DNA of 26,066 nt, taken from positions 1-26,066 of the IMG/VR virus record IMGVR_UViG_3300046010_004709. One strand, 5' to 3'. Below the pieces are notes generated by a model. That model was not told the DNA's origin, did no database searches, and was given only the letters and a program-made list of their open reading frames with translations. Of this stretch, positions 14,893 to 25,997 are shown piece by piece. A program made the position numbers and the translations under genes. The stretch is from a virus. Numbering within the stretch: the first letter of the stretch is position 1; every line of letters begins with the position of its first letter.

Positions 14893-15173
14893 ACGCAATT
14901 TATGATGTTTGGAAGTTTATCGACCACACTGATGACAGCCTAGAGCAAGCGCGATTAGAACACTTAGCGCAGCAAATCCGCAGCGATATGAAGCCTAGCG
15001 ACTTCATTCAGGAACTGGAGTGCGACGCTTCATTTGATGTTGAATGTTGCAAAGCAATTCAGTTGATGTTCTTAGGTGGAGATCCGGCAACTTGCGCGAA
15101 GGTTTTGACTAAGTTTGCTGATAAGTGGCTAGACCGTCAAAGCATGAAGTTGGCGCAGGAGTATAGCAAGTGA
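14889..15173 (+). CDS. 94-residue hypothetical protein
   Basis: An acidic helical protein (LEQARLEHLAQQIRSDMKPS; VECCKAIQLMFLGGDPATCA; ADKWLDRQSMKLAQEYSK) with four Cys in the second half. The DPSDFIQEL-like middle (MKPSDFIQELECDASFD) does not match a family I know. It starts in an ATGA overlap and ends with the TGA that overlaps the GTG start of the methyltransferase, so expression is probably coupled to it. Confidence 0.62.
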   Translation: MNAIYDVWKFIDHTDDSLEQARLEHLAQQIRSDMKPSDFIQELECDASFDVECCKAIQLMFLGGDPATCAKVLTKFADKWLDRQSMKLAQEYSK

Positions 15174-16039
15174 ATATTTTATCTTTGTTTGATGGAATGA
15201 GCTGCGGAATGATTGCAGCAGAGCGAGCAGGTTTAAAAGTCGATAAATACTATGCAAGCGAAATCGACAAGTATGCAAGCCAGGTATCACAAGCTAACTA
15301 TCCAGATATTATCCGGCTTGGCGATGTGACAGGATGGCGAGATTGGAGCATTGATTGGGCTGGCATTGACTTATTGATTGGCGGCTCGCCATGTCAAGGA
15401 TTTAGCTTTGCAGGTAAGCAGCTTGCTTTTGATGATCCGCGCAGCAAATTGTTTTTTGTTTACGTGGATATTTTGAACCATATCCGCTCAGTTAATCCTG
15501 ATGTAAAATTCTTACTTGAAAACGTCAAGATGAAGAAAGAGCATTTGGCAGTTATCACTGAAATGCTTGGAGTTAAAGGCGTCATTATAAATTCTGCGCT
15601 ACTAAGCGCTCAAAACAGACAGCGTTACTATTGGGCGAATTGGGAGATAACTCAGCCAGAAGATAAAGGAATTGTGTTGGCTGATGTTTTAGGCTTACCA
15701 GATGGCAGCTTTGACATATACCAAAAAGACAAGCCAAACAAATCAAGGCCATCAAACAGAAAATCAACCTGTTTAACTGGCACCGCTAATGCGGCAGGCA
15801 ACCACAGTCAAATGGATGTTGTTGTTATGAAAGGCGCGCACATTCCACTAACTAAGACAGGCAGGATTGATATTCATAGCAATCCATGCGTTTTCAGATA
15901 TTCAGTTGAACATTGCGAAAAGTTACAAACAGTGCCAATTGGTTACACTAAATCGGTAAGCAATAGTCAGGCTTACAAGGTGTTGATTAACGGCTGGACC
16001 GTTGACGTTATCGCCCACATTTTTAACTGTATGAAATAG
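15170..16039 (+). CDS. C5-cytosine DNA methyltransferase
   Basis: It transfers a methyl group from S-adenosylmethionine to C5 of cytosine in a specific DNA site. Motifs in order: I SLFDGMSCG (5-13, SAM site), IV GGSPCQGFSFAG with catalytic C75, VI ENV with E117 (117-119), VIII QNRQRYYWA (148-156), and X-like NGWTVDVIAHIF near 273-284. The target-recognition part (~160-245) includes RKSTCLTGT. At 289 residues it is short, as in phage enzymes related to DNMT3. The start is GTG 15170 with AGGAG upstream. Likely role: protection from host restriction. No partner endonuclease is seen. Confidence 0.93.
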   Translation: MNILSLFDGMSCGMIAAERAGLKVDKYYASEIDKYASQVSQANYPDIIRLGDVTGWRDWSIDWAGIDLLIGGSPCQGFSFAGKQLAFDDPRSKLFFVYVDILNHIRSVNPDVKFLLENVKMKKEHLAVITEMLGVKGVIINSALLSAQNRQRYYWANWEITQPEDKGIVLADVLGLPDGSFDIYQKDKPNKSRPSNRKSTCLTGTANAAGNHSQMDVVVMKGAHIPLTKTGRIDIHSNPCVFRYSVEHCEKLQTVPIGYTKSVSNSQAYKVLINGWTVDVIAHIFNCMK

Positions 16040-16795: not shown

Positions 16796-17548
16796 ATGAT
16801 TCATTATCATGGCGGCCCAATCACTCCCGATCCATGTGCGATAAAGACATGGAAAGGGAGACATGCATTCATAAGCTTTGCGGATTATCGACAGCTAGGT
16901 TTGGCTGCTGAGATTTGCCAGAGCTTTTCACTTGATAACGGAGCATTTAGCTTTTGGAAGACTGGAAAGTCGGTTGATTGGTCATCTTATTTTAAATGGG
17001 TAGATATATGGCGCAATCATCCAGGCTTCGATTTTGCAGTTGTACCTGATGTTATAGAAGGAACTGAAAAAGAAAATAATGATCTATTGAATTTATGGCC
17101 GTTTAAAAGGCATCAGGCCGCGGCTGTTTGGCACACAAACGAATCAATTGACCGCTTAGTTATGCTGGCAAATGAATGGCCAACAGTAGCAATTGGCAGC
17201 TCTGGCGAATATGACGTATCTAAGCCGGAGCGATTGATTGATCGCATGGCTGATGTGTTGCCGCACATCTGCGATAGAAACGGTAGACCGATATGCAAAC
17301 TGCATGGTCTGCGCATGCTTAATCCGGTTGTTTTTTCTAGGCTTCCTTTGTCATCAGCAGATAGCACAAATGTAGCGCGCAATATCGGCATAGATAGCGC
17401 TTGGCGTGGAACATATCAGCCAGCCAGCAAAGAGACTAGAGCTGCCGTTTTAGTCGAAAGAATAGAGCAGTTAAATTCGACAGACTCTATAAATTTAATA
17501 AAAAAGGAATCAGGCTCAAAGTCTGAAATTCAATTGGATATGTTTTAA
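16796..17548 (+). CDS. TGT/DpdA-like base-exchange protein, possible DNA modification enzyme
   Basis: The 250-residue protein has a pattern I associate with tRNA-guanine transglycosylase-like TIM barrels of the DpdA type: SLDNGAF (45-51, compare T-D-S-G-G-F in TGT), VVPDV (82-86), AIGSSGE (132-138), KLHGLRML (168-175) and PLSSADSTNVARN (184-196). DpdA enzymes swap guanine in DNA for a 7-deazaguanine, blocking restriction. D47 and D189 would be the candidate catalytic or base-recognition Asp. No preQ0 biosynthesis genes are present, so it would need host precursor. Family call is from memory; the activity is inference. It has no SD and likely depends on coupling. Confidence 0.5.
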   Translation: MIHYHGGPITPDPCAIKTWKGRHAFISFADYRQLGLAAEICQSFSLDNGAFSFWKTGKSVDWSSYFKWVDIWRNHPGFDFAVVPDVIEGTEKENNDLLNLWPFKRHQAAAVWHTNESIDRLVMLANEWPTVAIGSSGEYDVSKPERLIDRMADVLPHICDRNGRPICKLHGLRMLNPVVFSRLPLSSADSTNVARNIGIDSAWRGTYQPASKETRAAVLVERIEQLNSTDSINLIKKESGSKSEIQLDMF

Positions 17549-23150: not shown

Positions 23151-24416
23151 ATGGCTAACTCACTACAAAGTAACTATAACAAGAAATTGTTGATGCAGTT
23201 TACCAAGTCATTCATGTCTGAATTGACTATTGCTAAATCAGTTGAACGTCAAGTGTTAGTAAACGACTTCGATGCCACAACTGGCGGCCAAGTTGCAATG
23301 AAACGTCCAACTCAGTACGCACCACAGCGCACGAATGACGGCGATTTATCAGCAGCTTCAACTAACCCGATTAAAGTCGGGCAGGTTATCGGTGAAGTCG
23401 GTCAATACTGCACAGTATTGGTTGAAGCGACTCAAACCGAGAAAGCGTTACAGTTAAACCAACTTGACGAATTGCTACGTCCTGCTGCTGTTGACATGGC
23501 GATTGCCGTTGAATCTGAGCTTGCAAGCCGCATGGTTAAAGCTGCTGCAATGCAATCAGGCACAAAAGGCACTCTGATTAACAAATGGTCAGACGTTGCC
23601 AATGCTGGCGCTTTATTCCGTCAAGCTGGCGCTCCAGAGGGCGACAAGTACGCAGTTATCAACAACTTCGAACAAGTTGCACTGGCTGACAAGCAATCTA
23701 GCTTAGCTGTTAATCCTAATGTTGCTGACGCTTGGTCTTCTGCAACTGTAGCAACTCGCTTCGCTGGCTTTGATCGCGTATTAACGTCAAGCAACTTGGC
23801 GCAGTACACAGTTGGCACAGTAACCGCAGCGGCTTTATCAGCTACTCCGGCAGCTACTTACACCACGTATAAAGACACTTACCAAATGACTTTGGCGTTA
23901 TCTGGTGTAACTCCATCAACTGGCACAATCAAAGCTGGCCAGCAAATCCAAATTGCTGCAAGCAAGCTGGTTAACTTCCGTAACCGTAACATCGTACGCA
24001 GCACCGCAGGCGACGTGCCTATCACTTTAACAGTGTTGGAAGATGCAACAGCAGTAGCAGGCGCTATCGCAGCTCTGAAAGTGTCAGGCGCAGCAATCTT
24101 TGAATCTGGCGTTGATGCAGCGTTTAACACTGTAAACCGCGCCTTCACTTCAGGCGACGCTTTAGTGTTCTTGGGTACTGCAAGCTCTGTTCAAACTCCG
24201 GCGCTAGCCTACCATAAAGGCTTCTTCGGTATGGGTTCAGTGCAGCTGCCTAAGTTGGATAGCTTAGACTCAATGGTCATGAACTATGAAGGCTTCTCGA
24301 TCCGCGTTCATAAGTTCAGCGATGGTAAGGCGAATAAGAGCTTTTACCGGTACGATATTTTGCCTACCTTTGCGTGCTTCAACCCGTTCTGGGGCATGCA
24401 AGTGTCAGGCACCTAA
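23151..24416 (+). CDS. Major coat protein (P22 gp5 type)
   Basis: The capsid shell protein of 421 residues (P22: 430). The N-terminal part (QSNYNKKLLMQFTKSFMSEL; DATTGGQVAMKRPTQYAPQR) and VGQVIGEVGQ, VLVEATQTEK show the HK97-fold pattern with N-arm; residues ~225-340 (TYKDTYQMTLALSGVTPSTG; GQQIQIAASKLVNFRNRN) correspond to the inserted Ig-like I-domain of P22 coat. The conserved end (FSIRVHKFSDGKANKSFYRY) agrees. GGAG SD 6 nt before ATG is the best in the late region, fitting high expression. Confidence 0.94.
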   Translation: MANSLQSNYNKKLLMQFTKSFMSELTIAKSVERQVLVNDFDATTGGQVAMKRPTQYAPQRTNDGDLSAASTNPIKVGQVIGEVGQYCTVLVEATQTEKALQLNQLDELLRPAAVDMAIAVESELASRMVKAAAMQSGTKGTLINKWSDVANAGALFRQAGAPEGDKYAVINNFEQVALADKQSSLAVNPNVADAWSSATVATRFAGFDRVLTSSNLAQYTVGTVTAAALSATPAATYTTYKDTYQMTLALSGVTPSTGTIKAGQQIQIAASKLVNFRNRNIVRSTAGDVPITLTVLEDATAVAGAIAALKVSGAAIFESGVDAAFNTVNRAFTSGDALVFLGTASSVQTPALAYHKGFFGMGSVQLPKLDSLDSMVMNYEGFSIRVHKFSDGKANKSFYRYDILPTFACFNPFWGMQVSGT

Positions 24417-24435: not shown

Positions 24436-24462
24436 AGGGCGCTTCATGCGCCCTTTTCTTTA
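24436..24462. terminator. Two-way terminator after the coat gene
   Basis: AGGGCGC (24436-24442), TTCAT loop, GCGCCCT (24448-24454), then TTTCTTTAT. Ends the head transcript rightward and the short leftward unit on the - strand (A-rich side). The leftward gene's TGA (24444-24446) is in the loop, as at 3204-3231. Confidence 0.85.
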
Positions 24463-24611
24463 TCATCTAATCCAAAATAAAACCGCATCATATCATCAAC
24501 GCTTTGCTCCAATTGCTTTCTTACCTCCCCACGTTTGGTTTCAGCGGCTTCAGATTGTTGGCTGCTATGGATAGCATTCATAACAGCGTTATGTGTTGTT
24601 GTTAGTTTCAT
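24444..24611 (-). CDS. 55-residue hypothetical protein, last of a two-gene leftward unit
   Basis: The ATG at 24611 overlaps the TGA of the previous gene (ATGA). The product (MKLTTTHNAVMNAIHSSQQS, then EAAETKRGEVRKQLEQSVDD) is helical and charged, with an aromatic end (MMRFYFGLDDKEKGA). The TGA is in the loop of the two-way terminator, which is shared with the coat gene, so the gene ends as close as possible to the head transcript. No family recognised. Confidence 0.72.
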   Translation of the reverse strand: MKLTTTHNAVMNAIHSSQQSEAAETKRGEVRKQLEQSVDDMMRFYFGLDDKEKGA

Positions 24612-24829
24612 TTTATCTGCCCCATGAAATCTAGGTAATTAGCAGCCATTTTTCTTTGCATTGCTGCAATGCGCTTTTTAGATTCTATGCGCTCGCGAAC
24701 TTGCGTTAATGTCGGTATAGGCTCTATAACTTTAAAAGGCTCAGAGAGCCCGCTAAACGCTTCACTGCGAATAATCTTGAAAACTTCTTTGACTTCAAGT
24801 TTGCATAAATAAATGTCGGTTGATTTCAT
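24608..24829 (-). CDS. 73-residue hypothetical protein, first of a two-gene leftward unit
   Basis: The ATG at 24829 has GGAT ~9 nt upstream on the - strand. The product (MKSTDIYLCKLEVKEVFKII start, then SEPFKVIEPIPTLTQVRERI) is basic at its C-terminus (ESKKRIAAMQRKMAANYL). It follows a leftward promoter at 24862-24890 and lies opposite to the head genes, in a 1.6-kb piece between coat and gp4 that is absent from the P22 gene order. Function unknown; an expressed moron is plausible. Confidence 0.65.
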   Translation of the reverse strand: MKSTDIYLCKLEVKEVFKIIRSEAFSGLSEPFKVIEPIPTLTQVRERIESKKRIAAMQRKMAANYLDFMGQIK

Positions 24830-24895: not shown

Positions 24896-24924
24896 TTGCA
24901 TAAAAATATTGATTCAGCTAATCT
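24896..24924 (+). promoter_or_regulatory. Rightward promoter for a probable small RNA
   Basis: -35 TTGCAT (24896-24901), 17-nt spacer, -10 TAATCT (24919-24924), giving a start near 24931. No credible gene lies between here and the terminator at 25102-25127. Confidence 0.5.
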
Positions 24925-24930
24925 AATTGC

Positions 24931-25127
24931 ATACCTCTAGGCTTGGCAACAATGGCCGATGCAGAGTTACAGACTAGATTGGCCTTCCTCCAATCGCCTT
25001 AGCTTCTCTGTTGAAATTGTTGAAGGCAGGTTCTTTCCGCCCACATGCGCGGTTTCTACCTTTCCGTCGTAGCTGCTCGATGCCGAAGCCGCAGCAAACA
25101 GACCAGCCTTGTGCTGGTTTTGTTTTT
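24931..25127 (+). ncRNA. Probable structured phage small RNA (C4-antisense-like)
   Basis: A ~197-nt transcript bounded by a promoter and an intrinsic terminator, with no credible gene inside. Hairpins: GATTGG/CCAATC with loop CCTTCCT (24977-24995); GGCAGG/CCGCC (25025-25041); CGG/CCG (25050-25066); GCTGC-TCG/CGA-GCAGC with an internal bulge (25072-25095); then the terminator. The loop and its 3' flank (CCTTCCTCC) are complementary to Shine-Dalgarno sequences. TTTCTACCTTTCCGTCGTAG (25053-25072) recalls the phage C4 antisense RNA family, from memory only. The start position is inferred from the promoter. Confidence 0.58.
25102..25127 (+). terminator. Intrinsic terminator of the small RNA
   Basis: ACCAGC (25102-25107), CTTGT loop, GCTGGT (25113-25118), followed by TTTTGTTTTT. 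It sits 5 nt before the -35 of the next promoter. Confidence 0.85.
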
Positions 25128-25131
25128 CTAG

Positions 25132-25159
25132 TTGACAGTTGGCTCTTATGTGATACATT
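25132..25159 (+). promoter_or_regulatory. Rightward promoter with extended -10
   Basis: -35 TTGACA (25132-25137, consensus), 16-nt spacer, TGA-TACATT extended -10 (TACATT 25154-25159). Its -10 resembles that of the 13826-13853 promoter (TGATACACT). It drives the gene at 25191. Confidence 0.78.
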
Positions 25160-25190: not shown

Positions 25191-25997
25191 ATGAATAAGC
25201 AGGAATTACTAGATAGCGCGGTACATGAGTTTGGCGGAAAATGGCCAAACAGATATAATTGGCCTTGCAAGCGCTCAGCAATAAATGGATTTTACATTAC
25301 ATCAATTGGAACATTGACACACAAAGATCACTGTGAATGGTTTAACGATCAAGAATTCCAGCAACGCGCACGCGAACTAGGCTACATCAATGGATATAGA
25401 TACGGCGTTGAATATCGGACCAATGGGAAAAGGCCTGATTTGCCGGATGATTGCTCCATTCAATGGCGGTCTAAGCAGCTTGATAGCGAATGGCTTCCAG
25501 AGGATGGGCAGTCTACAATTGTTGGTGTTCTGACGTGGAGAGATGGTCAATACAATGTAGATTCATTCAAAATCACCGACCAGCGCTACAAACCAGCAGA
25601 CACAAGCTATCTATCTGTAAGTGAAATCCCAGAAAGTAAGTCAAATGCTGAAAATGTAAGTGATTGGTACGATTACGAAGCGCAAAAGGCTGTTGCTTTG
25701 CCGCCAGTTGGTGTTGAGTGTGAATCTTTAGTTCAAGGCGCAGATGGTGCTGAATGGGTAAAAGCAGAAATACTTAAACATTTTGATAAAGGTACGTGCG
25801 CTTGCTTTTGCATTAACACGCACTATTTAAAATGGGCTGATGACTTTCGCCCACTAGACCACGCCACACGCAAAGCCGAAGCAGAGAAAAAGCGCGTGGT
25901 TGATGCTGCTTTTGCATCGCTATCTGAATTCAATAAGGCGCATCAAGTGCTTGGTGAATTATACGAAGCAGGCTTCTTGCGTATGCCTGCTGAATAA
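25191..25997 (+). CDS. 268-residue hypothetical phage protein
   Basis: The start is ATG 25191 (MNKQELLDSAVHEFGG) with GAGG upstream and 30 nt after a promoter; a longer frame to 25011 would run through the small RNA and terminator. The protein has two parts: residues ~1-150 (GKWPNRYNWPCKRSAINGFY; GVEYRTNGKRPDLPDDCS; VLTWRDGQYNVDSFKITDQR) and ~160-268 (WYDYEAQKAVALPPVGVECE; CINTHYLKWADDFRPLDHAT) ending in a charged helix. Modules with A-L-P-P-V-G-x-x-C-E are frequent in phage hypothetical proteins. No enzyme motif seen. Confidence 0.68.
   Translation: MNKQELLDSAVHEFGGKWPNRYNWPCKRSAINGFYITSIGTLTHKDHCEWFNDQEFQQRARELGYINGYRYGVEYRTNGKRPDLPDDCSIQWRSKQLDSEWLPEDGQSTIVGVLTWRDGQYNVDSFKITDQRYKPADTSYLSVSEIPESKSNAENVSDWYDYEAQKAVALPPVGVECESLVQGADGAEWVKAEILKHFDKGTCACFCINTHYLKWADDFRPLDHATRKAEAEKKRVVDAAFASLSEFNKAHQVLGELYEAGFLRMPAE

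Follow-up and report, generated by a model that had tools for sequence, protein, structure and literature searches.

The question raised by this locus is what is encoded at positions 24896-25127 of a 26,066-base IMG/VR contig (IMGVR_UViG_3300046010_004709; hereafter the window, to the whole of which all coordinates refer). The contig derives from a P22-like phage, as assessed by PHROG matches for the portal (phrog_156), scaffold (phrog_8865) and coat (phrog_283) genes, and the interval in question is bounded by the coat gene, which ends at 24416, and by a phrog_3483-like gene at 25191-25997. Sequence comparison gave good support for a free-standing RNA gene on the plus strand, comprising a promoter, an RNA of ~195 nucleotides (nt) and an intrinsic terminator. 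A first-pass annotation had read the region as a probable ~200-nt structured small RNA flanked by a promoter and a terminator of its own, and this proposal is strongly supported by covariation over the copies described below and by the recovery of distant copies.

A search with the coat protein identified two close phages, G001 (L002, coat 99%) and G002 (L003, coat 96%), both of which keep the RNA at 82-84% nucleotide identity within a surrounding interval that differs; in G001, the sequence upstream of the RNA is unrelated and no intact gene follows. Pattern scans of IMG/VR yielded close copies in 18 contigs including the window, with one full copy in each, and three divergent copies (L059, L060 and a shortened L057) that were absent from the training set of the covariance model. 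The model recovered these three at E values of 5e-29, 7e-26 and 4e-17, part of this score being expected because the loci had been fetched using a pattern from a conserved junction. As judged from these searches, no fewer than 20 further uncultured phages have kept the RNA. No match above the gathering threshold was found in the whole window using Rfam 15, and none overlapping the RNA at E<=10. At the sensitivity of the searches used, DNA similarity searches of named phages and plasmids gave no copy, the matches being either fortuitous or about the size of a terminator, and one pattern scan of GTDB species genomes returned three matches that were rejected as chance, since the model scored two of them at E 0.83, over nothing but the pattern, and left the third unlisted. 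Weak partial matches obtained when five named relatives were scanned with the model (E 0.0023 or worse, two of them only at the 3' end of the model) were not accepted.

The folding energy of the region was unexceptional relative to shuffled sequences (minimum free energy z-scores of -0.75 for the plus strand and -1.44 for the minus strand), and folding energy alone therefore gives no support to the RNA. This unremarkable score, together with minus-strand open reading frames (ORFs) of 63 and 98 amino acids (aa) that overlap the RNA, would fit chance hairpins or the relic of a minus-strand gene, with no functional RNA present. However, in an alignment of 17 distinct sequences, 99.6% of the base-pair cells of the proposed structure (helices P1 to P7; Table 1) were paired, compared with 87.5 +/- 0.8 in shuffles, and both-sided compensatory change was observed in 17 of 42 pairs. 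Double-change cells numbered 93 (31.3 +/- 4.8 in shuffles) and the covariation value was 0.380 (0.153 shuffled), and none of 500 shuffles reached the pairing, double-change or covariation value; the "further pair types" measure was not above its shuffles in this alignment. When the partner strand was slid by 1-3 columns, pairing fell to 33-55%. With two distant copies added, P1-P3 remained 98.2% paired, with a covariation value of 0.407 against 0.162. Covariance support in homologues, named beforehand as one of the points on which the proposal could fail, was thus found far outside the controls. The wobble cells of the alignment comprised 46 G-U and 2 A-C, which places the RNA on the plus strand. 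Moreover, the copies are separated by 1-nt insertions or deletions within loops and junctions, indicating that 24896-25127 is noncoding, in agreement with the first-pass view that the stretch holds no credible gene. Given the covariation, these single-base changes and the G-U evidence for the plus strand, chance hairpins or a gene relic are very improbable, and the sequence comparisons are taken to establish the RNA gene, its structure and its strand.

The hairpins P3, P4 and P6 and the terminator were all located where they had initially been drawn. Overlooked at that stage were the long-range stem P1, a second stem, P2, with its sub-helix P2b, and a possible pseudoknot. In relatives, P1 also occurs as CGACAAU:AUUGUCG in place of CAACAAU:AUUGUUG, and P2 as CAGAG:CUCUG, CAAGG:CCUUG and ACGGG:CCCGU. 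The 5' strand of P3 varies between GAUUGG, AAGCUG, GAGCAG and GAGUUG, each with a matching partner strand and all around the loop CUUCCU, and the inner stem of P4 shows double changes between CCGC/GCGG, CCGU/ACGG and CUGG/CCAG around an internal loop, UCUUU/UUUCU, that is near-invariant within the main family. This internal loop is a mirror-symmetric pyrimidine element for which a triple helix with GAAA is possible in principle; UUGAAAUUG is invariant in the RNA. The helix variants of P2/P3, P4 and P6 are combined differently among the 17 aligned copies, as if exchanged by recombination. The pseudoknot helix P7 is listed as possible only, because it is near-invariant and runs of its length appear in 19% of shuffles; L059 has a 5-bp match and L060 a 4-bp match. 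A long-range stem UUGGC-GCCGA was dropped, as it showed no covariation and its 3' partner is GGCGA in L059 and L060. Two copies differ in architecture: L003 (6499-6721) carries a 19-nt insertion between P1 and P2, and L057 (3448-3572) has no P4-P6 half, so that its P1-P3 arm runs straight into the terminator. A candidate second copy in G008 (L048, G008:24167-24335) was rejected, consisting of the terminator end only, after an inserted unrelated gene of 125 aa; this partial element suggests recombination within the RNA element.

Table 1. Features of the RNA locus and the gene that follows it, in window coordinates
Feature	Position	Strand	Basis or remark
Promoter TTGCAT-17-TAATCT	24896-24924	+	Sequence; position kept in relatives
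Small RNA	24930-25127	+	Predicted start ~24930, end in T tract; covariation in 17 distinct copies and 3 distant copies
P1, CAACAAU with AUUGUUG	24947-24953 with 25016-25022	+	Double change from A-U to G-C (5 copies); L060 has U-A
P2, GCAGAG with CUCUGU	24961-24966 with 25006-25011	+	Double changes in 4/6 pairs
P2b, AGACUA with UAGCUU	24971-24976 with 25000-25005	+	A-C mismatch inside; both sides changed from C-G to U-A in L006 and L029
P3 apical hairpin GAUUGG-CCUUCCU-CCAAUC	24977-24995	+	Anti-Shine-Dalgarno-like loop; double changes in 5/6 pairs; CUUCCU invariant in main family
P4	25028-25061	+	Outer stem AGGU/ACCU, pyrimidine 5x5 internal loop UCUUU/UUUCU, inner stem CCGC/GCGG
P6 hairpin UCG-UAGCUGCU-CGA	25067-25080	+	UCG/CGA, CUU/AAG and CCA/UGG double changes
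P7 candidate, GCAGC with P6 loop GCUGC	25091-25095 with 25072-25076	+	Paired in 17/17; almost invariant, one U-A to U-G change
Intrinsic terminator ACCAGC-CUUGU-GCUGGU and T tract	25100/25102-25127	+	Terminator scan; compensating stem variants in relatives
Separate next-gene promoter TTGACA-16-TACATT	25132-25159	+	Scan; kept downstream of many copies
Downstream mosaic gene, phrog_3483-like hypothetical protein, 268 aa	25191-25997	+	PHROG match; frequent but dispensable neighbour

Three genomic placements of the RNA were distinguished: after a P22-like coat gene (A; window, G001, G002), between an upstream phrog_9747-like gene and the terminase downstream (B; G003, G004, G010, G012, G014, G015), and behind the capsid gene in tailed phages of other kinds (C; G005-G009, G011, G013, G016, G017), the capsid families having been set by PHROG for G016 and G008 only and assigned via shared homologues for the others. 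The RNA has the marks of a moron, namely a promoter and a terminator of its own, as seen from the sequence only, and a presence and position that vary between phages. Conservation of the RNA and its movement between phage types are likewise established at the level of sequence comparison, according to which the RNA is a mobile cassette. Four of the contigs (G001, G006, G011 and G012) carry identical ends of 114-127 bases and were therefore taken as complete. No tyrosine integrase was found in the 14 contigs searched and no serine recombinase in the nine searched, although either may have gone undetected or lie in unsearched parts of the contigs; because of these results, the phages carrying the RNA are considered probably virulent.

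The -35/-10 pair marked in the first-pass annotation was found in place, with TTGCAT at 24896-24901, a spacer of 17 nt and TAATCT at 24919-24924. The pattern TTGCNN-17-TAATCT lies equally far upstream of the RNA in the window, G001, G002, G005-G009, G016 and G017, with unrelated spacers, and TTGCAC-17-TAATCT was identified by eye upstream of the RNA in G013. Other -10-like boxes are present at a similar distance in most placement B copies and in L057, L059 and L060; in G004 and G010 the promoter pair is unconvincing. A consensus promoter scan of the window did not list TTGCAT-17-TAATCT, and support for this promoter, which by its sequence is of the sigma-70 type, therefore comes from its positional conservation in relatives.

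A promoter, RNA and terminator that precede late or accessory genes and share the orientation of the adjacent head genes could also constitute a leader, attenuator or antitermination element (of the riboswitch, put or lambda pR' type) controlling the genes downstream in cis, and lambda pR'-tR' gives a comparable short terminated RNA. However, the downstream gene varies, being unrelated or decayed in several phages in which the RNA stays, and often has its own promoter right after the terminator. Many contigs have the phrog_3483-like gene after the RNA, intact in part of the set; in G001 and G006 apparently just a 3' remnant of it is present and the RNA is retained. As the genomic place of the RNA itself also changes, control in cis is regarded as improbable.

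The function that we tentatively favour, ahead of the other readings though at somewhat less than even confidence, is that of a stand-alone, trans-acting structured RNA moron of probably virulent tailed phages, the loop of which would block ribosome sites on host mRNAs. A sigma-70-type promoter and a terminator delimit this RNA gene. In the fold, helices P1, P2, P2b and P3 make up one long arm, P4 forms a second arm interrupted by the pyrimidine internal loop, and P6 is a short hairpin. At the tip of the long arm is a pyrimidine-rich loop resembling an anti-Shine-Dalgarno (anti-SD) sequence; this loop may pair with the ribosome-binding site of at least one host mRNA and so block translation during infection, and we infer transcription, action in trans and base pairing by the loop. 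Consistent with this, the promoter and terminator are kept while spacers, neighbours and genomic place differ. An anti-SD-like motif in an unpaired loop on sequence-divergent stems was found here in one loop only: all copies of the main family have CUUCCU, and the loop reads CCUCCUU in L059 and UCUCCA in another distant copy. Translation control via ribosome-binding sites is favoured because of this fixed pyrimidine loop on a variable stem, a pattern seen in RNAs whose loops do the pairing, and because of the CCUCCUU in L059.

Several observations weigh against such a role. The SD-complementary loop reported initially does exist and its anti-SD-like character is kept, but its complement is no consistent feature of ribosome sites in phage genes: AGGAAG is not shared at the ribosome sites of the phages' own genes, and the check for ribosome-site complementarity in the phage genomes yielded no consistent target gene. 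Complementarity of the whole RNA to its own genome was at chance level relative to shuffles, which leaves a host mRNA or a protein as the candidate target. By duplex energy, the best gene family for the P3 loop had a mean of -8.5, with -7.7 as the 5% bound of the resampled minimum; it consists of a 66-aa gene present in three contigs and is at most a weak lead to a target. This predicted gene (L041 10196-10396 in G001, with homologues in G006 and G014) has TTGAGGAA(G) just before its start. In addition, the junctions and internal loops contain many invariant bases, beyond what simple antisense pairing needs.

This invariance fits, instead, a protein-binding or decoy RNA that would occupy a host protein (e.g. 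an RNA chaperone, nuclease or defence component) via its conserved fold. The unpaired junctions, including the invariant UUGAAAUUG, and the P4 internal loop are highly invariant across copies, the multi-helix fold is compact, with P6 in a possible pseudoknot, and the search for mRNA targets in the phages came out empty. On geometry only, the mirror-symmetric UCUUU/UUUCU could accommodate a strand of GAAA, for instance the invariant GAAA of the RNA itself. Against this candidate role, L057, which lacks the whole P4-P6 half, keeps the P1-P3 arm, though that copy may be dead. Because the near-invariant P4 internal loop and UUGAAAUUG junction fit a protein-binding RNA, this alternative was retained as unlikely but worth weighing. 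Similarly doubtful is its extension to a new class of structured RNA in virulent phages, a protein-binding or decoy element rather than an ordinary antisense RNA (e.g. an RNA-based counter-defence or takeover factor), spread among different types of phage as a small cassette.

Finally, the first-pass annotation had likened the stretch TTTCTACCTTTCCGTCGTAG to the C4 antisense RNA of phages P1 and P7. This stretch corresponds to the 3' side of P4 and the start of P6, and not to a C4 element. A phage origin, several hairpin loops and SD-like complementarity, as originally noted, would suit a C4-type antisense RNA regulating an antirepressor. However, RF01695 was unmatched even at E<=10 in both the region and the contig, the C4 model, at 87 positions, is less than half as long as the RNA, and the ANT antirepressor domain PF03374, the only Pfam domain sought, was absent from nine contigs including G001, G006, G011 and G012. 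The C4 reading was therefore rejected as hardly credible; the broader notion that a phage RNA here carries an SD-complementary loop still holds.

Elsewhere in the window, two small minus-strand ORFs of 55 and 73 aa (24444-24829) lie between the coat gene and the RNA, in an interval that differs in both close relatives; the 73-aa ORF gave no match using PHROG and Pfam. The phrog_3483-like gene is a mosaic, with segments swapped between phages, and its conserved parts are MNKQEL (first codons), SEIPESKSNAE, AEKKRVVDA and LYDAGFLRMP (middle and end). A queuine tRNA-ribosyltransferase-like gene (phrog_887) is located at 16796-17548, near a DNA methyltransferase-like gene (phrog_116) at 15170-16039.

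That the RNA is small, self-contained and common to phages with different capsid and tail modules argues for help in infection. As neither Rfam nor the searched records of named phages and plasmids contain it, it would represent a new RNA family; on the sequence evidence this family belongs to a known kind, the small RNAs encoded by phages, and travels as a mobile cassette. To our knowledge, phage structured RNAs of this complexity without a known function have seldom been described, and the alignment and structure model of the family are ready for direct testing. The 6S RNA of lambda pR'-tR' is a terminated transcript of ~195 nt beside the late genes, and thus resembles the present RNA in length, termination and late-gene adjacency; here, in contrast, the position varies, the neighbours have their own promoters and the fold shows strong compensatory evolution. 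The C4 RNA of P1 and P7 (RF01695) is likewise a phage-encoded structured RNA with loops of SD-complementary potential, whereas the RNA described here is twice as long, has other helices and forms a free-standing gene in late-gene intervals. The sar and sas RNAs of phage P22, which pair with ant and sieB mRNA (PMC12197685), are also small RNAs of a P22-like phage, but the present RNA is no more complementary to its own genome than expected by chance and sits between coat and gp4. AgvB and related small RNAs of lambdoid prophages in enterohaemorrhagic Escherichia coli are host-acting and encoded in phage moron positions (PMC4104026), whereas the RNA here is long, highly structured and found in phages without a detected integrase. 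The alpha-r14 or cuckoo RNAs of alphaproteobacteria (NfeR1) have three hairpins with an ultraconserved anti-SD motif, CCUCCUCCC, on divergent stems (PMC10746234). They share with the phage RNA a conserved anti-SD loop motif on stems of divergent sequence (PMC10746234), but are bacterial RNAs with no homology to it in the Rfam search and carry three CCUCCUCCC hairpins, compared with a single loop of different motif in a long multi-helix RNA here. By analogy, they provide a candidate comparison for how the phage RNA may work.
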